Assembly (NCBI GenBank): GCA_037042915.1
Contig: CM073193.1
Location: 5,952,001 to 6,016,000 of the forward strand
Length of the DNA: 64,000 nucleotides
Origin: Auricularia sp. M13
Lineage: Eukaryota; Basidiomycota; Agaricomycetes; Auriculariales; Auriculariaceae
Reading direction: 5' to 3'
Shown here piece after piece: positions 6,282-62,285 of this stretch. The notes below the pieces were generated by a model that made no database searches, had not been told where the DNA came from, and worked only from the letters and a program-made list of their open reading frames with translations. The translations under genes and the position numbers were made by a program. How positions within the stretch are numbered: the first letter of the stretch is position 1; each line of letters starts with the position of its first letter.

Positions 6282-8237
6282 ATGTACGTCACGACCATGT
6301 CCTCGTTGCCGCCAGATCGCGCAGCGTCTTTGGATAGAGTTATTGCTGGAACCTTGCGCGACTTGCCCGAACGGCTCGGAAGGTCTGAGCTGCTCCTTGC
6401 GTACTCATTGAAATCTGATTGGCTTAGACCGCCGACTGTTACAGAGACCGAAAAACGCGTTGAGCAAATCCGCGCAGCCTTTTCTCACGCTCTTGCGAAG
6501 GAATTGCGCCAGATGAACCAGGCCGCATCGACCATTTGCACGCTCCCAAGCGAGATTATTGCCCTTGTTGCTGCGCAGCTAGTATTCCTCGACGTCCTGC
6601 TAGCCGCATCCATCTGCTCGCGACTGCGCCAGATCATCGTGACCACGCCGAGCCTGTGGACAGAAGTTTCAGTCATATTTCACCCCGATTCACCGGATAG
6701 TGCTCAGCTCAACGCATTCCTCATGCGATCAGGCAAGATGCCTGTGTCCGTGAGCCTAAAAGGTCCATCGAACGTATCCCGGCGTCTCGACGACCTTGTG
6801 AAGCTGCCGTTGTGTATCTTCGAGCACCTGGATCACATTTCGCGCCTGTCTGTCGATTTCCAGGATCTTGACTTTAGCGTTGCGGATATGACGCGTCCCG
6901 CGCCACAGCTACAGTCTCTGACACTGCGCGCCCCAAAGTTCCGCTATTATTTACAACACCTACCGGGCAGGTTGTGCGGCGGGGTTCTTCCCAACCTCAC
7001 TTCTGTTGACCTCAAAGGCTTCGCTCTTCCCACGGAGCCGGTCGAATTCCCTTCAGTCAATCAGCTTCAAATTCACTGCATGCCGCCCGTGGACGGCTGG
7101 GACACAGACCATCTCCAGATGCGGCGTATCGCACAGACATTCCCTAACCTGGCTCGACTGTGTCTAGGCGAAGGTCCGTTTCCCAATCATCCTGTCGAGC
7201 GCCTGCACAAGGCCGAAGGACTCGAAGAAGTCCTCATTGGCGAAGAAAGCCAGTTGGCATTTGGAACATGCAGCCTGCAGCTTGACCTTATCCCTCGCTT
7301 AGTCGCATTGTCCAAATCGCCGGGGATGGATCTTCTGTGCCGCAGCCTGCCGACCACGCACTTCTTCAAGAATGCCATGGAAGGACTGGCCGACGACGGG
7401 CGCATCATCAGTGTGGCTTGGCCAAAGAAGATAATCCCTATCCAGACGTCCTTCTGCGAGAACATCCGTTCAGTCGTCGTGCACATCGATCACCTTCGCT
7501 GGTCCCTTGACGTGGACTGGCCTCTGCTAGACTCGCTGGAATTCGACATCACGCGTCCCTCACCGGCTGCAATCAAAACAGCGTTCTCCATGCCTGCACC
7601 GCATGCTGAATGGAATACGCCTGTGCTCAGAAGCATGCGCCTAGTCTTCACAGAGGACTCCCGGGGTCGCGGCACCCGCGTCGTCTTTCCGTCGGAGCTG
7701 CTTCACTTCTTGCAGCGCTTCAAGATCGATCCACCTGTCTTTGCCAAGCTCGAACTTATCAGACTGCATCTATGGAAAAAGTCGCGCGCTCTGTCAGCCC
7801 TCGTCACAGAGCTTATTGTCAATGGCCAGCCATACGACGAACGCAGTATAGGCGGACAGGACTCCATGCATCTGATTCCTTCTCTCACGGACGATGCCGC
7901 CATGGACGAGGATACCGATAAGGAGGACTACACGGACTACGCAGCCTCTGGTTCGAACTGCTCGACATCGCAGAACGATTCATCTAGCGAAGATGCGACG
8001 GGCTCAGACTCCTCGTCCGGGTCGTCCCCGTCTGAATCCTCATCCGATTCACACACATCTCCCTTGTCCTCCCCGTCTGATTCCTCATCCGATTCATCCG
8101 AATCTTCCTTGTACTCGAGCGACGCCTCGTATGAGAGCGCGAGGCTCAGGCTCAAGGCAACGGCGCAGTCTGAGTGGAAACTGCTGACATCCGATTTTCC
8201 AGCGAGGAAGATTAGGGACCTCCTCATGGACTCATAG
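6282..8237 (+). CDS. F-box protein with Ser/Asp-rich tail
   Basis: Intronless 651-residue protein. F-box proteins are substrate receptors of SCF ubiquitin ligases. An F-box lies around residues 80-120 (ICTLPSEIIALVAAQLVF, then ICSRLRQIIVTTPSLW), followed by about 400 residues of LRR-like alternating hydrophobic segments, and a C-terminal region of Ser/Asp/Glu repeats (about residues 535-625) encoded by imperfect repeats of TCCTCATCCGATTCA type. The last 30 residues (SEWKLLTSDFPARKIRDLL) are again ordered and are conserved in the second copy at 23759-25438 on the other strand. Starts at 6282 and 6297 are both possible; the copy does not decide between them. Substrate unknown. Confidence 0.8.
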   Translation: MYVTTMSSLPPDRAASLDRVIAGTLRDLPERLGRSELLLAYSLKSDWLRPPTVTETEKRVEQIRAAFSHALAKELRQMNQAASTICTLPSEIIALVAAQLVFLDVLLAASICSRLRQIIVTTPSLWTEVSVIFHPDSPDSAQLNAFLMRSGKMPVSVSLKGPSNVSRRLDDLVKLPLCIFEHLDHISRLSVDFQDLDFSVADMTRPAPQLQSLTLRAPKFRYYLQHLPGRLCGGVLPNLTSVDLKGFALPTEPVEFPSVNQLQIHCMPPVDGWDTDHLQMRRIAQTFPNLARLCLGEGPFPNHPVERLHKAEGLEEVLIGEESQLAFGTCSLQLDLIPRLVALSKSPGMDLLCRSLPTTHFFKNAMEGLADDGRIISVAWPKKIIPIQTSFCENIRSVVVHIDHLRWSLDVDWPLLDSLEFDITRPSPAAIKTAFSMPAPHAEWNTPVLRSMRLVFTEDSRGRGTRVVFPSELLHFLQRFKIDPPVFAKLELIRLHLWKKSRALSALVTELIVNGQPYDERSIGGQDSMHLIPSLTDDAAMDEDTDKEDYTDYAASGSNCSTSQNDSSSEDATGSDSSSGSSPSESSSDSHTSPLSSPSDSSSDSSESSLYSSDASYESARLRLKATAQSEWKLLTSDFPARKIRDLLMDS

Positions 8238-17576: not shown

Positions 17577-18938
17577 TCACGCAGCGTCGAGCCTGATGGC
17601 AGAGAAGAACCCCCAGATCAAGTTTGGATCTCCGTCGAGGTTGCAGCGTTTCAGTACGAGCGACAGGTTGCGACGAGTCGTACAGCGAAGCGTGTGGCCC
17701 ATGAGCTTCGCGACCCAAGTGACATGGACTAGACCACCGCGGCTGCTCGATACCTCAACGCTTCTGAGCTGCGGGCAGTTGACAGGGGCGAGTGTCGGGC
17801 CATCGACTGCCGCAATTCCGTACTCCACATAGATGGTGACGTCCGTTACAGAAGGCAACTCCGTCGCCAACATGAGCATGTTGTCCCAGTGTCCCGGACT
17901 AACAGCAATGCGCGTGATGCGGCCGACGACGATGGGAAATACAGATTGCAGATTCCCTGGCACCTCGGAATCGAACAAGCCCGCAAACGAGACGTCGACA
18001 TAGTCCATCTGGCGCACACGCCCGTGCCCATCCTTCAGACGGACAAAGTACACGCCGGATCCTGCTTTCAGCGCCATCTCGAGAGTCAGCGGGCCGGCTA
18101 GGTGCTCGACCAGGAACGTGAAGCCATCCCGACGGAGGTAAGATCCAGTTGTGGTAATAACCTTGGTGTCGGGCGAAGTCAACGCCTTGAACAGTGCGAC
18201 CGGTGTCGGTGATACGCCGGCAAGTTCAACAGTGTGTGGTACTGGCCGCAGCGTGAAGTCATTCCAGCTTCCCTCCCAGCATTGGCCTCTCAGGCTCAGC
18301 TTGTCGATATTGGGCAGGAACCGCAACATACGCTGGAAAAATGCGCAGTCCTGGGGCGGTTTATGAACTAATGGCCCGTATATAAGCACGCTGACAGACG
18401 CAAACGCGGGGATCGCTGACGTGCCCGCAGCGCAGGCGAAGCCTCGAGTAGTGAAGGCCGTCAGGCGCGGTGCAGATCCTCCAAGAAACGACGAATCAAG
18501 TTCAAGAATGGTCAGTCTTGTCTGTGGATCGTCCAAGTCCATATGCAGCCGCTCGAGGCGTGGTGCAGGATGACTGGTGGCTTTGACAAGGTCTGCTGCA
18601 TACGACGGGTGCACGCTGACGCGTAGTTCCACAACACGGTCCATGAGTTCGCTGATCAGTGGCAGCATCACGTCCTTCACGAAGGCAGATGGCTTGGACA
18701 CATGTAGCTTCAGGTTGACAATGCCAGTGGTCGAGCGCGCGCGAGTGACCAGCAAATCTACAACTGCAGCCGAGGGACCAGCATCATCGTGATTCACGAG
18801 CCATATGTCGCGAGCGAAATTGGGATGAGCGTGCGCTATAGAGCGCCATGTACGAGAAACATGCGAGCAGAGGACGATGGAGGACAGCGACAAGTGGTCG
18901 AAAATACGCTGTACCAGATCGGTTGGCACATCAGCCAT
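17577..18938 (-). CDS. F-box protein
   Basis: Single-exon protein of 453 residues from the ATG at 18938 (MADVPTDLVQRIF). An in-frame ATG at 19079 would add 47 low-complexity residues and is less likely because the F-box then sits unusually far in. The F-box is immediate: VPTDLVQRIFDHL, then CSHVSRTWRSIAHAHP. The rest is LRR-like without strict repeats, containing SKPSAFVKDVMLPLI and ending WVAKLMGHTLRC and a final Leu-rich strand. Both the middle and the end (AKxMGH) match the F-box gene at 27175-28545, so the two are paralogues. Role as an SCF substrate receptor is inferred from the family; substrate unknown. Confidence 0.75.
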   Translation of the reverse strand: MADVPTDLVQRIFDHLSLSSIVLCSHVSRTWRSIAHAHPNFARDIWLVNHDDAGPSAAVVDLLVTRARSTTGIVNLKLHVSKPSAFVKDVMLPLISELMDRVVELRVSVHPSYAADLVKATSHPAPRLERLHMDLDDPQTRLTILELDSSFLGGSAPRLTAFTTRGFACAAGTSAIPAFASVSVLIYGPLVHKPPQDCAFFQRMLRFLPNIDKLSLRGQCWEGSWNDFTLRPVPHTVELAGVSPTPVALFKALTSPDTKVITTTGSYLRRDGFTFLVEHLAGPLTLEMALKAGSGVYFVRLKDGHGRVRQMDYVDVSFAGLFDSEVPGNLQSVFPIVVGRITRIAVSPGHWDNMLMLATELPSVTDVTIYVEYGIAAVDGPTLAPVNCPQLRSVEVSSSRGGLVHVTWVAKLMGHTLRCTTRRNLSLVLKRCNLDGDPNLIWGFFSAIRLDAA

Positions 18939-19301
18939 TGGTGCAGGGGTATCAGCAGCAGCAGCTTTCTGTGAACCTATTCGGTCAGGATCGTTGGCTA
19001 GCGGTGGAGGTAGAAGAATTACGGACTGAGGGTTTGTGACTAAGCGACTGACCTGCGGACTCCAAAATATTCTGATCACATCCGTGTCTTACTCTGGTCC
19101 CACGTTCAGGGTGCGCTCAGATCTGCTTGTCCTGATATGCTCCGCCTCATAGCTAGCCTCTAGAATGAGGGAGGGAACACTTCAATATTGAAATTGCCAA
19201 CAGCTGAAGTGAAACAACTCATAGAAATGCATGAAATCCCTCCAGAACATCGGCAAAGATGTATACTTTGACAACCAATCTCTATATGTTCTCCACAATC
19301 T

Positions 19302-23758: not shown

Positions 23759-25438
23759 CTATATTGCATTTATGAGAAGATCTCTAATCTTCCTTGCAGG
23801 AAACTCGGATGTCAGCAGCTTCCACTCAGATACCGCCACCGCCTTCAACTTGAGTCTCGCGCTCTCGGTAGTAACATCGCTCGAGCCATGTGACAACGCA
23901 GATACGGCCGAATCGTATGAGGGGTCAGACGGAGAGCTCGATCCCGTATAATCCTCGCCAGATGAATCATTCTGCGACGACGAAGTATCAGTGCTGCTCG
24001 ATCCAGAGTCCGAGTAGTCCTCGTCCTCCGAGTCATCGTCCTCGCCGACTTCGTCCATTGCGGCCTCAGTCGTTATAGGAATGAGACACATGCAGTTTCG
24101 TGCGTCCTTCTCAAGTTCTTCGTACGGCTGGCCGCTGACGAGAAGTTCAGTGACGAGGGCTGACAGATTGTCAGATAGTTCCCATAAACGCAAGTTGACG
24201 AGGTCGAGTCTGGCGATAACAGGAGGGTCGGTCTTGAAGCGCTGCAAGAAGCGCACGAGCTCGAACGGAAAGACCACGCGGGTGCCGCGACCTCGGGAAT
24301 CTTCGGTGAAGACTATGCGCACACGCCGGAGTATTGGCGCATTCCAGTTGTCCAGTCTCGACATGGCGAATGCTGCTTTGAGCGCGATTGGGGAGGGATG
24401 AGTGATGTCGAATTCCACAGACTCCAACACAGGCCAGTCCAGCGGCCGCACAAAGCGCAGGTAATCGATGTGCACGACGACGGAGCGAATGTTTTCGCAC
24501 CAGGATGACCGAATAAAGCACTGCTTGCTCGGCCAGGCTACGTTGATCACTCGCCCGTCATCGGTGACCCCTTCCATGGCGTACTTGAAGAAATATATCT
24601 TGGGCGGGCTGCGACACAGAAGAGCCATCCCTGGCGTTTCTGACAAGGCGACTAAACGAGGGATAAGGTCAAGCCGCAGGCCGCATGATTCGAAATCAAA
24701 CTGGCTTTCGTCGCCAATGAGGACTTCGTCGAGCCCTTTCCCGTGGTGCAGACGCTCGACAGGATGAGTGGGAAAGGGACCTTTGCCTAGACACAATCGA
24801 GCCAGGTTAGGGAATGACTGTGCGATACGCCGCATGTGGAGATAGTCTGCGTTCCAGTGGTCCACGGATGGAATGGCGTGGATCTGAAGCTGTCTGACGG
24901 CAGGAAATTCCACAGGCTCCTTCGGCAGAGCAAAACCCTGTAGATCAACAAAAGTGAGGTTGGGAAGCACCCCGCTGCACAGGTTACCCGGTAGGCGTTG
25001 GAGATAATAGCGGACCATTGGGGCGCGGAGCGTCAAAGATTGTAGCATGGGCGCGGGGCACGTCATAGCGGTGACACTGAAGCCAAAATCCTTGAAATCG
25101 ACCGACAAGTGAGAAATGTGATCCAGATGCTCGAAGATACACATAGGCAGTTCCACAAGTTCGCGAAGTTGGGGTCCGTCCGAAGAACCTTTTAGGCTCA
25201 CGGACACAGACATCTTGGCTGATCGCGTCAGGAATGCGTCGAGCTGAGTACCATCCGTAGAATCGGGGCGAAAGATGACGGGAACATCTGTCCATAAGCT
25301 CGGCGTGGTCACGATGACCTGGCGGAGACGCGAGCAGATGGATGCAGCGAGCAGGACGTCCCGGAAATCAAGCTGAGCAGCAAAAAGGCCGATTATCTCG
25401 CTTGGAAGCGTGCAAATGGTCGATGCCGCCTGGTTCAT
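23759..25438 (-). CDS. F-box protein, second copy of the 6282-8237 gene, with N-terminal nonsense codon
   Basis: Clear paralogue of the gene at 6282-8237 on the opposite strand: the F-box (ICTLPSEIIGLFAAQLDF), LRR-like body, acidic Ser/Asp tail and final SEWKLLTSEFPARKIRDLL all align, by eye at roughly two-thirds to three-quarters identity. Upstream, homology continues to an ATG at 25660 (MDTLSLPLLRAAS, GTLRDLPEQL), but a TAA at 25544-25546 interrupts that frame 38 codons in. The frame is open again from just after the stop, so a shorter protein of about 559 residues could start at the ATG at 25438 and would keep the whole F-box. It is either a gene that lost its first ~80 residues or an early pseudogene; the long intact frame after the stop favours the former. 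Confidence 0.7.
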   Translation of the reverse strand: MNQAASTICTLPSEIIGLFAAQLDFRDVLLAASICSRLRQVIVTTPSLWTDVPVIFRPDSTDGTQLDAFLTRSAKMSVSVSLKGSSDGPQLRELVELPMCIFEHLDHISHLSVDFKDFGFSVTAMTCPAPMLQSLTLRAPMVRYYLQRLPGNLCSGVLPNLTFVDLQGFALPKEPVEFPAVRQLQIHAIPSVDHWNADYLHMRRIAQSFPNLARLCLGKGPFPTHPVERLHHGKGLDEVLIGDESQFDFESCGLRLDLIPRLVALSETPGMALLCRSPPKIYFFKYAMEGVTDDGRVINVAWPSKQCFIRSSWCENIRSVVVHIDYLRFVRPLDWPVLESVEFDITHPSPIALKAAFAMSRLDNWNAPILRRVRIVFTEDSRGRGTRVVFPFELVRFLQRFKTDPPVIARLDLVNLRLWELSDNLSALVTELLVSGQPYEELEKDARNCMCLIPITTEAAMDEVGEDDDSEDEDYSDSGSSSTDTSSSQNDSSGEDYTGSSSPSDPSYDSAVSALSHGSSDVTTESARLKLKAVAVSEWKLLTSEFPARKIRDLLINAI

Positions 25439-25660
25439 CTGGCGCAGTTCCTTCACGAGAGCCTGGGAAAAATGGGCGCGGATTTGCTGTACGCGTTGTT
25501 CAGTCTTTGCAATAGTCGGCGGTCTAAGCTGATCAGCTTTTATTTAGCACAAGTGGTGCACCTCAGACCTTTCGAGTTGTTCGGGCAAGTCGCGCAAGGT
25601 TCCAGCAATGAATCCGTCCACAGACGCTGCGCGAAGTAGCGGCAACGACAGCGTGTCCAT

Positions 25661-26433
25661 ACGGAGTATAGTACGTTCGTCTACTAAGGCGAGCAAAGAG
25701 GCGCATAGATTCCTTCTGCCGGGTTAGGAGGAATAGCGCACTGCGATGCGCGGAAGTCGAACGAGAAGCACTCGAGCGGGGTTTGAACATGCACTCGCGA
25801 GAAGAGCCTCCGCCAAACGTACCTAAAACTTTCGAGCTTCAAACAGGGTATACTGGCAGGCAGAATGGGCTATATGTACTTTTGAGAAGAGAACTTCCAT
25901 AAAAATGCAGTACTGTGCGCATCAGCAGCGTTGACATTCACATTAGCGTTCACTGGCCCCGTTCTCACAAAGGAGACGACTTGACACTGTCCCGTCAATC
26001 TTTCCAATTGATTTACAATTAAATTTCAGGCCTGCATGTCTTCCCCCCAGGCTCTGGCATACGTTTTCCAGCTTCCATACATGGGAATGACATCGCATGC
26101 AATGAAAATTAGAGATTGTGATATTGGCTAAGACCCTCTGACCTCTGATCGTTGGCCCATTCCTTCGGCACAAGCTTCTCAGGTTGCTCCTCATGCACAC
26201 CTTATTTCTCTCCCCTGATGAATTAGTACACTTTAACATGAAGCTGCGCGGCTTGTCGTACTACGAGCACCGGAACCGCTGTCATAGAGTGGCCGCGGAC
26301 AGCGCATGAGTATTTCATTTCACGATCAGCGATTACTATGCCCGTTTATGTTACACGCCCGCGGCTCCGTTAGCGAAGCAGTCTGCATGCGAAAACCTGA
26401 ATACATAGAGCCCGCTGCTGAGCGCGCGGAGTA
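25661..26433. other. Intergenic, no gene recognised
   Basis: AT-richer than its surroundings; the frame at 25943-26239 (minus) has no recognisable domain. It holds the upstream region of the F-box copy and ends at the TA dinucleotide bordering the palindromic element. Confidence 0.35.
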
Positions 26434-27161
26434 TCCTCCTTATACTGTACAAAAATTATTTTATCCAAAATCAAGCCCACATCCAAATTTCCAAGGTGTT
26501 TTCCAGAATCTCACCCCTCCATCCAAGACTTTGTGAGGGATCCAAGCTGGAGCACTTGTCATCCAAACTGATGACACCGGATCCAAATCCGGTGCCGGCA
26601 ATCCAAACATGGCACACCCCAGATCCAAGAAATACTTCCGGTCATCCAAGTGCAATCCAAACTCATTCCAAATATCTTTGAGCCCTGATGAGAAAAATCG
26701 AAGCCATTATCTATCTACACAGTGAGTGTCGGAGTCTGTGCTACTCCGGCCCGAAGGTCGGTCGGACACGGCCGACCTTCGGAGCAGCTCAATAGCTGAG
26801 GAAACGGACCCTTCGGACATGCTCCGGAGACGGCCGACCTTCGGGCCGGAGTAGCACAGACTCCGACACTCACTGTGTAGATAGATAATGGCTTCGATTT
26901 TTCTCATCAGGGCTCAAAGATATTTGGAATGAGTTTGGATTGCACTTGGATGACCGGAAGTATTTCTTGGATCTGGGGTGTGCCATGTTTGGATTGCCGG
27001 CACCGGATTTGGATCCGGTGTCATCAGTTTGGATGACAAGTGCTCCAGCTTGGATCCCTCACAAAGTCTTGGATGGAGGGGTGAGATTCTGGAAAACACC
27101 TTGGAAATTTGGATGTGGGCTTGATTTTGGATAAAATAATTTTTGTACAGTATAAGGAGGA
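26434..27161. mobile_element. 728-bp palindromic (fold-back) element with TA flanks
   Basis: Two arms, 26434-26761 and 26834-27161, are reverse complements over 328 bp with no mismatch that I could find, around a 72-bp spacer. Both outer ends abut the dinucleotide TA (26432-26433 and 27162-27163), which fits a Tc1/mariner-type target duplication. Termini begin TCCTCCTTATACTGTACAAA. Each arm carries about ten ATCCAA motifs, mostly 18-22 bp apart. The spacer repeats part of the inner arm (CCGACCTTCGG words). No transposase is encoded; the mirrored 64-codon frames in the arms are a by-product of symmetry. Likely a recent non-autonomous DNA transposon. Confidence 0.85.
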
Positions 27162-27174
27162 TAGCGGAGAGCGG

Positions 27175-28545
27175 TCATGCGCGAAGCAGTTTGATTTCGT
27201 CCAAGAAACCCCATACCAGCTCTGGATCCCCAGCCAGCTGGCAGCCTTTGAGGTGTAAGATCAACTTGCCGCGCGCGACGCAGCCAAGACTGTGCCCCAT
27301 AAATTTCGCCAGCCAGAGGACATCGACCGGCGCGCGACAAGGACTCGATATCACGATATTCTTGATCCGCGGCCATTTCACTTGTGAAATAGCATTGCGT
27401 GTCGATCCTGGTTCGGGGATCGATAACTCCAGTGTTTCAAGGCTAGAGCTCTCGGGAACGACCTCAGCGATATATTCCCACAGCATAATGTCGGCCGTGA
27501 CGCGAGCGATGCGAGGGGCGAGGGGCAAAAACATGGGAACAAGGTGTGTGATGTCCAATGTCAACTCCAAATCGTCTTCTTCCCACAAATCCAGCTGCCG
27601 TGCTCGGCCGTCCGCATTGGTGAGCTGGAGATGCCATAAACGGTCGATTCTGGGACTCCACGCAAAGCTCAGCGCAAGTGCTCCAGCGAGCGAAGAGACC
27701 ATGAGCTGGAAAACGTCTTCATCGATCCCATCTCCGGGGACACTGGTGTGTTGAGTGTCTGGAGAGGATAACATGGCCAGAAGAAGAACGGAAGTGGGAT
27801 CTTGGAGCTCCAATCTGCGCAATGGTGGTGAAGCACTATAGCCGTCCCACATGTCCTTGTCCAGCCATTCCTCGGAGGCGCGTAGGCAGAGACATTCGAG
27901 GTTCGGAAGAAGGCCCAACATCGTACGGAGAATGTAGTATTGTCCAGGGACGTCGGACGGCTCATATATGAGCTTCTTCGTGGCTGCAAGCCCAGGTATG
28001 ACGGATGTTTCGGACACAGAAACAAAACCCGTTGTGAAAATGGTGTCTAGCAGAGGCGCAGTACCTCCGAGGAAACTGGGAGAAAGTGTCCATATCACAG
28101 ACGCTGATGACGTCAAAGCTTCGAATCTGAGCCATTTGAGGCGGTGCGCAGGATGTTCCAGGGACTTCAGAAGGTCAACGGACAAAGACGAATCCACCAC
28201 GATCCGCAGATCCTCGACTCGGTGCAAGCACATGCCGACCAGTGGCAACACAACGTCCTTCACGAAAGCGGAAGGCTGGGACATATAGATGCATAGATTG
28301 GTGATGCCTGAGGTTGCTAGGGCTCGCGTGAAAAGATAGTCGGCAGCAGCAGGTGGTGGGTCGATGACGCTGTGGTGAATAAATTGGATGGAGCGTGAGA
28401 ATGTGGGGTGACCATGAGCAGCCATACGCCAGGCCCGGGAGACGTGCGATGCATCAAATAATGATTCGAGTTCCAGTTCGTCAAATACGCGCCGTAAGAC
28501 GTCGCCGGGCAGCAGCATCGTCGCTTCGCTGTCGCAACCCGTCAT
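27175..28545 (-). CDS. F-box protein
   Basis: Single-exon protein of about 456 residues from the ATG at 28545 (MTGCDSEATMLLPGDVL); an ATG 24 bp upstream is also in frame. The F-box is at the N-terminus: LLPGDVLRRVFDELELES, then ASHVSRAWRMAAHGHP. The body shares SQPSAFVKDVVLPLVG, LSPSFLGGTAPLLD and the C-terminal WLAKFMGHSLGC with the gene at 17577-18938, so they are paralogues about 9 kb apart on the same strand. The palindromic element lies only 13 bp beyond its stop codon, so any 3' UTR must run through that element. Substrate unknown. Confidence 0.78.
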   Translation of the reverse strand: MTGCDSEATMLLPGDVLRRVFDELELESLFDASHVSRAWRMAAHGHPTFSRSIQFIHHSVIDPPPAAADYLFTRALATSGITNLCIYMSQPSAFVKDVVLPLVGMCLHRVEDLRIVVDSSLSVDLLKSLEHPAHRLKWLRFEALTSSASVIWTLSPSFLGGTAPLLDTIFTTGFVSVSETSVIPGLAATKKLIYEPSDVPGQYYILRTMLGLLPNLECLCLRASEEWLDKDMWDGYSASPPLRRLELQDPTSVLLLAMLSSPDTQHTSVPGDGIDEDVFQLMVSSLAGALALSFAWSPRIDRLWHLQLTNADGRARQLDLWEEDDLELTLDITHLVPMFLPLAPRIARVTADIMLWEYIAEVVPESSSLETLELSIPEPGSTRNAISQVKWPRIKNIVISSPCRAPVDVLWLAKFMGHSLGCVARGKLILHLKGCQLAGDPELVWGFLDEIKLLRA

Positions 28546-28864
28546 TGGCGGGCGTTGGAATGGGCACATAACCGCTACCGCTAACCTTAAATTGCTCTGT
28601 ATACGGGCTTAATCTGCTACAAATCCTGCGAGACGCGACTTGGTAGGTACTTGGGCGCGGAAGGTGAAAACGCGGAGATAGCCGCGTATGCATCCGAGTC
28701 AGGGTTGACTCCGACTCCTCGGGACCACGGTGCGATGTAACGCCGCAATAGTATAATTCTAAGTGCGTCTGAGCGCGGTATATATCTACTATATGTAATG
28801 CAACAATAGATGACTGATGTTCTCTCCAACGAAAAGCAGGGAAAATCTCACACAATCGGCGACT

Positions 28865-60857: not shown

Positions 60858-62285
60858 ATGGCAAATAGGGACAGACTTGCGCAGCTCCGGGTACGCCAGC
60901 GTCTGCGCTCTGGGCGCTCATTGCTCACGGCAGTATGCAGGCTCAGCAGCAGGGCGGCGGCGGCGGCGGCCCAGGCTATGGCGGTGGTGGCGGCGGGTAC
61001 AACGAGTGCGTTACTACCGCCAGCGAGACAGCTTGAGTGACTGACGCCGGCCAGCTACCAGCAGCAGGGCTACGGCCAGCAGCAGCAGGGTTATGGTCAG
61101 CAGCAACAAGGTTACGGTCAGGAACAGGGCTATGGTCAGCAGCAATACGGCGGCGGCGGTGCCGGCGGCTACGAGCCGCGGCGGGCGAACCCTTACGCTC
61201 AGCAGGACGGCGGCGCGTACGAGATGAGCTCGCGGCCGTCCAACTACACGACCCCGCAACAATCTTACGCCACTGCCAATGGCGGCGGCGACGACCTGAG
61301 CGCATTCTACGCCGAGGCATGTCATATCTCAAAAATAAGGGGAAATGCTGACGGTCCGAATTTCCATGCAGATTGGGAGCATCCAGGACGATATCAAGCG
61401 CTACAACGAGAACGTCGGCGCCATCAGCGATCTGCAGCAGCGCTCGCTGAATAACATGGACGACAACGCGGCGCAGCGCAACCAGCAGCAGCTCGAGCAG
61501 ATCGTCGGCGAGCAGAGCCAGCTCTCGGCCTCGCTCAAGCGCCGCATCAAGGACCTCGAGCGCCAGGGCGGCAGCGGGCGCGACGCGCAGGTCAAGAAGC
61601 AGCAGACGGCGTTCGTCAAAGCCAAGTTCGTCGAGGCCATCCAGAACTACCAGCAGATCGAGCAGCAGAGCCGCACAAAATACAAGCAGCGCATGGAGCG
61701 CCAGTTCAAGATCGTCAAGCCCGACGCGTCGCCCGAGGAGGTCCGCGCCGTCGTCAACGACGAGTCCGGCGGACAGATCTTCTCGCAAGCGGTCAGTCGC
61801 TCATGCGCCTTTAACGCCGCATTGTGACACTCATTTGGCGTATCTAGTTGATGAACTCGAACCGCTATGGCGAGTCGCGAGCAGCGTACCGCGAAGTGCA
61901 AGAGCGGCACGCGGATATCAAGAAGATTGAGAAAACGTTGACCGAGCTCGCGCAGCTTTTCCAAGACGTTCGTCAGCTGCTGTTCCACGTTCGACGCGGT
62001 GCTGAATTTGCTTTTTTTCTGTAGATGAGCGTCCTCGTCGAGCAGCAAGACGAGACGATCAACGTCATCCAGAACAACGCGGTGAACATCGACCAGGACG
62101 TGCAGATGGGGTACAAGGACACGGAAAAGGCGGTCGACAGCGCGCGCGGCGCACGCAAGAAGCGTTGGATCTGCTTCTGGATTAGCGTCGTCATCATCAT
62201 CGTCGTCGTGTTAGTCGTGCTCTTCACCGTCAAGCCATGGGAGATCAAGAAGGCCGTGAGCAACAACAACGGCAACGGCAACTAA
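60858..62285 (+). CDS. SSO1: Plasma-membrane syntaxin (SSO1/2-like t-SNARE)
   Basis: Qa-SNARE for fusion of exocytic vesicles with the plasma membrane, acting with SEC9 and SNC. Six exons (60858-60890, 60941-61005, 61055-61316, 61372-61791, 61848-61967, 62025-62285) join in phase to 386 residues. The N-terminus MANRDRLAQLR is followed by a Q/G/Y-rich stretch with repeated GYGQQQ units, prion-like in composition. Then the Habc three-helix domain (DDIKRYNENVGAISDLQ, SLKRRIKDLE, KFVEAIQNYQQIEQQ), the SNARE motif spanning the last two exons (ELAQLFQD-MSVLVEQQDETI; zero-layer Gln about 308), and a C-terminal transmembrane helix at about 348-367. The third intron (61317-61371) begins GC rather than GT. 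Length is longer than yeast Sso1 (290) because of the N-terminal extension. Confidence 0.92.

Follow-up and report, generated by a model that had tools for sequence, protein, structure and literature searches.

A 732-bp palindrome in Auricularia sp. M13 is a mobile element, a small non-autonomous member of the IS3EU/GingerRoot-type transposon group that resembles a miniature inverted-repeat transposable element (MITE). It lies at positions 26432 to 27163 of a 64,000-nucleotide stretch (contig CM073193.1, positions 5,952,001 to 6,016,000; C1:5952001-6016000), hereafter the window. Both arms carry ATCCAA motifs about two helical turns apart, and we consider it probable that the group's rve-type (DDE) integrase docks on this lattice of phased motifs.

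The element runs from TATCC to GGATA between two copies of a 6-bp target-site duplication (TSD), GCGGAG, at 26426-26431 and 27164-27169. Its terminal inverted repeats (TIRs) are 333 nt each, the left at 26432-26764 (plus strand) and the right at 26831-27163 (minus strand), and pair at 332 of 333 bases, with the lone mismatch at 26762. The unpaired center (26765-26830) is 66 nt, and a short inverted repeat (26751-26764 with 26769-26782) extends into it. The earlier note, made from the letters of the window, had described identical 328-bp arms between 26434 and 27161 around a 72-bp spacer; the near-perfect palindrome stands, but the arms are longer and differ at one base, the true start is 2 bp further out at TATCC, and the center is shorter. 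The terminal sequence at 26432-26452 (plus strand), TATCCTCCTTATACTGTACAA, is partly common to other families of related elements. The window element itself codes for no integrase. An inverted-repeat assembly artefact, which had been raised as a possibility, is unlikely because the palindrome does not extend into the flanks and copies at other places in the genome have duplications of their own.

Searching the genome (52.1 Mb, 14 contigs) with one arm as the query returned 27 matches. Family A, to which the window element belongs, includes 11 two-ended copies with the window's own (two with large inserts, one internally deleted), one copy truncated on the right (C2:4789849), and a fragment near C11:1330179-1330637. 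Across the eight full-length copies, arm-to-arm likeness ranges from 82.6 to 100%. Terminus patterns revealed additional families whose ends are of this type, B (ATCCHA motifs) and C (CGACAC-like motifs), as well as four giant elements of 17.3, 22.6, 36.7, and 40.4 kb (G1 twice, G2, and G3), each with an exact 6-bp TSD. A motif search added family D, a palindromic element at C4:124717 with the ATCCAA motif and GTCCAA on both flanks. Identical 6-bp flanks were present in 25 of the 29 two-ended elements tabulated, or 26 of 29 when the right end of the family D element is set 3 bp inward. Listed terminus pairs outside the analyzed set include some on C1, C3, C5, C6, C8, C10, and C11, and locus L054. 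Phased ATCCAA triples had 39 matches genome-wide, 35 in family A elements and four in the family D element; the reversed control, AACCTA at 18-23 bp spacing, had 263, exceeding the real pattern. The insert of one family A copy (L032:861-4528) is 3.7 kb long with identical 177-bp direct terminal repeats.

Assignment to IS3EU rests on termini, TSDs, and integrase. The signature of that group is TA..TA ends with 6-bp TSDs (PMC10045372). Here, the window element and its relatives begin with TATCC or TATGC and end with GGATA or GCATA, and 6-bp TSDs flank the window copy and most two-ended relatives. All four giants, which have ends of the same kind, contain matches to the IS3-like DDE integrase family PF24764 (rva_4), a further likeness of the larger related elements to IS3EU. 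The D, D, and E motifs of the G1 and G2 integrases are visible by eye; the G1 open stretch also has a helix-turn-helix (HTH) match above cut-off, and its structure model contains two three-helix (helix-turn-helix) units, at residues 54-89 and 101-146. The earlier note had suggested looking for an autonomous relative with matching TIRs. The ends of the 17- and 40-kb elements do resemble family A, with G1 ends aligning to it close to the terminus, but they carry a different motif, and in the genome-wide motif search none of the phased ATCCAA triples lay in an element with an integrase. Family A may be moved by a G1-like integrase or by a relative since lost.

Among described fungal elements, Styx, an active IS3EU-related element of Zymoseptoria (7.9 kb, with a 36-bp TIR), is alike in its 6-bp TSD, IS3EU-type transposase, and fungal host, according to the available text of PMC10853768. 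TET-bearing IS3EU families of rust fungi differ in having TAYGG..CCRTA termini (PMC12730594, available text); the ends here, TATCC or TATGC, do not follow that pattern. The 17-kb element contains a weak Tet_JBP match (L036:8457-8942; E value of 0.063, below the cut-off), of note since TET/JBP genes travel on some fungal IS3EU elements. Five other rva_4 integrase genes (L061:2137-4023, L076, L077, L078, and L079) had, in the stretches examined, no TA..TA ends with a 6-bp TSD and no strong arrays, and possibly belong to another lineage or are host-like. The rva_4 matches at C10:3584803 and C13:98273 have identical scores and frame lengths, perhaps reflecting a recent copy or duplication.

Within the window element, the ten left-arm ATCCAA starts listed in the earlier note are all exact (26463, 26481, 26521, 26540, 26561, 26581, 26601, 26623, 26644, and 26655), forming an array at 26463-26671 (plus strand). 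The right arm repeats it as a mirror image at 26924-27132 (minus strand), with ten TTGGAT (26935, 26946, 26967, 26989, 27009, 27029, 27050, 27069, 27109, and 27127) and no ATCCAA, and the left arm contains no TTGGAT. The remaining 63269 window positions hold 10 ATCCAA and 15 TTGGAT. Left-arm spacings are 18, 40, 19, 21, 20, 20, 22, 21, and 11 bp; that most fall at 18-22 bp, as previously claimed, is correct for seven of nine, a result matched in 3 of 100000 trials that placed ten sites at random within the span from the first site to the last. The degenerate CCAG reported in the 40-bp gap belongs to TTCCAG at 26501 (arm position 70), which is on the lattice. Two sites, ATCCAA at 26655 and the degenerate TTCCAA at 26666 (position 235), are 11-bp half-steps, and TTCCAA at 26489 (position 58) is off the lattice. 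When the stretch was scanned in 3184 windows of 340 bp, the top 30 places were all in the element or in a GC-rich repeat at approximately 60960-61100, which is apparently coding.

The same periodicity recurs in most of the other arms. We counted 5-mers repeated at set distances in 46 arms and compared the counts with 200 dinucleotide shuffles. Repeat counts were highest at lags of 19-22, 39-43, and 59-65 bp, and in family A additionally at 54-58 bp. At lag 19-22, the count was matched by none of the 200 shuffles in 42 of the 46 arms and by 1 or 2 in three more; the exception was one arm of an internally deleted copy, for which 146 of 200 shuffles scored as high. Sixteen extra terminus matches were examined after the pattern was known and judged by counts, without shuffles; 13 of these showed 19-22 bp repeats with family motifs (two weak, C3:907058 and C1:4901390). 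C1:5862268 and C5:35931 look like chance pattern matches, although the former reaches a comparable count (12 at lag 19-22 versus 11 across 24 other lags), and C4:3918656 departs from the family sequence after approximately 100 bp.

Counted from the terminal T, the motif positions of six arms, each of a different terminus type, fit a common lattice. In family A (window copy) they are 32, 50, 70, 90, 109, 130, 150, 170, 192, 213, and 235; in G1 (C6 left) 34, 52, 73, 92, 111, 132, 153, 173, 195, 216, and 237, continuing to 341; in family D 69, 91, 109, 130, 150, 170, 192, 212, and 255; in family B (L070) 91, 109, 129, 151, 171, 212, 253, 273, and 315; in family C (L058 left) 109, 130, 152, 172, 191, and 211; and in G3 left 110, 131, 152, 173, 192, 213, 234, and 255. 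These lists take in degenerate sites (CAGAW or TCAAA for G1; CGATAC and CGACTC too for G3). A joint fit to the six arms, after removal of sites 58 and 224 from A, position 2 from D, and site 381 from G1, gave a period of 20.52 bp with a root mean square residual of 1.17 bp over 59 sites. The registers from the cut end were 7.1-10.2 within the period, an agreement to about 3 bp over six terminus types and four motif variants, although the arms, one per terminus type, were chosen by hand and the families are related, so that the agreement does not represent independent events. Irregular spacing in other copies, which the earlier note held would count against phasing, was not the rule in family A: 20 of 22 arms keep sites 32 to 213 within about 2 bp, with some sites missing and one arm counted after allowing for its truncated end, and the remaining two are both from the internally deleted copy.

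Several observations weigh against a strict lattice. Arms of other families are in several cases shifted by 4-15 bp, and register breaks occur in C1:4196939 left (9 bp short) and C2:3012157 right (4 bp). In C6:562583 the register shifts with the seventh CAGAW site, in C3:907058 sites lie at 124 and 166, and the G2 left and G3 right arrays begin no earlier than about 210-231. Tandem repeats inside the 40-kb element score equally high in the lag test; thus, the lag score alone is insufficient to define an end array. A test of conservation period made without reference to the motif was likewise unsupportive for family C (top period of 32) and G1 (39). The same test gave a top period of 20.0 bp in families A and B (equaled by block shuffles in 48 and 83 of 1000, respectively; beyond the omissions from the 20-arm family A set given below, the truncated right arm of C2:4789849 was left out) and a peak at 21.25 bp for the G2/G3 pair (150 of 1000 shuffles as high).

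The arrays could instead be decayed tandem repeats, i.e., foldback-style arms grown by slippage in which the spacing is a functionless leftover of the repeat unit. Adjacent spacers are indeed similar in G1, C, and G2/G3 ends, indicating that local tandem duplication occurred. Foldback transposons such as the Foldback-like Galileo (PMC3573991) and Tetris (PMC4079207), as well as palindromic MITEs, share long internally repetitive arms and a short non-coding center, as far as the available text of those papers describes them. In family A, however, the spacers differ from one another while the motif recurs, and the motif columns are more conserved than the spacers (mean majority identity of 0.968 versus 0.882 over 20 arms; 0 of 239 rotations of the site mask did as well, with sites picked on the window copy, which favors them). 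The deleted copy C9:2194045 contributes neither arm to that 20-arm set, and the two insert-bearing copies contribute no right arm. The arrays here also differ from foldback arms: what repeats is a short motif, and its register relative to the cut end is shared by families whose motifs are not the same. Together these points make an origin without function unlikely. As to how the arrays arose, they were probably built by local tandem duplication, given the repeated spacers in G1 and C, and would then have been preserved by selection acting on both motif and spacing.

It is somewhat less likely still that a protein other than the transposase occupies the arrays and serves to silence, insulate, or position the ends; it might be a host factor, part of chromatin, or a different product of the element. 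The giants contain additional open frames, and a second type of element in this genome repeats a motif at 21-bp intervals, a further point against an integrase-specific lattice since it suggests a possible shared physical or host constraint. The motif varies by family, though, as for a co-evolving partner, while a host factor might be expected to favor one motif. The other element (L035:2790-4499 plus L031:1-130, on C11, between the arms of a family A copy) carries TGCGCACGCA at 21-bp intervals close to each end; the pair pattern of this motif had 94 genome-wide matches versus 0 for its reversed control. No TATCC ends were seen on it, and by eye CTGCTCTCG flanks it on both sides.

The earlier note had also suggested that the palindrome could be a source of long hairpin RNA; such RNA would then trigger RNA silencing. 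Near-perfect 333-nt arms would fold into a single hairpin, and three sub-threshold miRNA-type Rfam matches at the center reflect that fold, although all matches in the Rfam search were far below gathering scores. Phased arrays of this kind also occupy both ends of elements 17-40 kb long, and the symmetry of the arms is not kept among the full-length family A copies, leaving this explanation very improbable.

The window also contains a gene cluster with F-box or F-box-like matches (window 6282-8237, 17577-19079, 23759-25456, and 27175-28569), two of the four merely near cut-offs. The frames at 6282-8237 and 23759-25456 are inverted relatives, mostly 74-83% alike, and the right end of the element is 11 bases from the end of the frame at 27175-28569.

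In the docking model that we favor, the element would amount to one transposon end present twice, in head-to-head arrangement, with the 66-bp center between. One integrase subunit would grip one unit of about 20 bp via two putative tandem HTH domains, and subunits would follow one another head to tail every two helical turns along a single DNA face, with the register counted from the cut end. The row would then pair the ends and bring the catalytic subunits to TATCC. The directly oriented motifs, the two-turn period, and the register from the cut site are the properties that such a row of identical DNA-binding subunits would require. The earlier idea of a platform for a cooperative DNA-binding protein on one helix face gains indirect support from the recurrence of the roughly two-turn spacing across copies and families with differing motifs, in elements related to those that encode integrases; we infer that the integrase is the binder and that its binding is cooperative.

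Tn7-like ends are the closest precedent for such a lattice. The ends of Tn7 and CRISPR-associated transposons (CAST) and of phage Mu, bound by TnsB and MuA, likewise have several transposase sites each (PMC9371665 and PMC9527255, available text). In ShCAST, the first two 22-bp TnsB sites are described as overlapping by 1 bp, a 21-bp step (PMC9371665), and TnsB and MuA are described as having paired N-terminal DNA-binding domains ahead of an RNase H-type core (PMC9527255). The array here is longer and more even than the Tn7-like and Mu rows. The word "subterminal" was absent in a text search of the IS3EU papers as available (PMC10045372, PMC12730594, and PMC10853768).

No description of phased arrays in IS3EU was found in the literature searched (IS3EU, GingerRoot, and subterminal, phased, or repeated transposase sites, for the longer result lists among their top entries, with Repbase and most subscription papers outside its coverage). 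We know of no study of end recognition by IS3EU/GingerRoot transposases. We tentatively propose, as a possibility short of an even chance, that IS3EU-type eukaryotic transposases read a spacing code, in which each end is covered by a nucleoprotein filament of up to 16 sites (approximately 350 bp), with one subunit every 20.5 bp and its register locked to the cut site, and in which the lattice is selected while the motif is free to change between families. If true, such a code would let related families stay mutually insulated without altering their end architecture. A lattice period that outlasts motif change is a directly testable model, and the lattice offers a motif-independent route to the ends of giant elements. 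It would also mean that ends with many transposase sites, as in Mu and Tn7, extend to a group of eukaryotic transposons.
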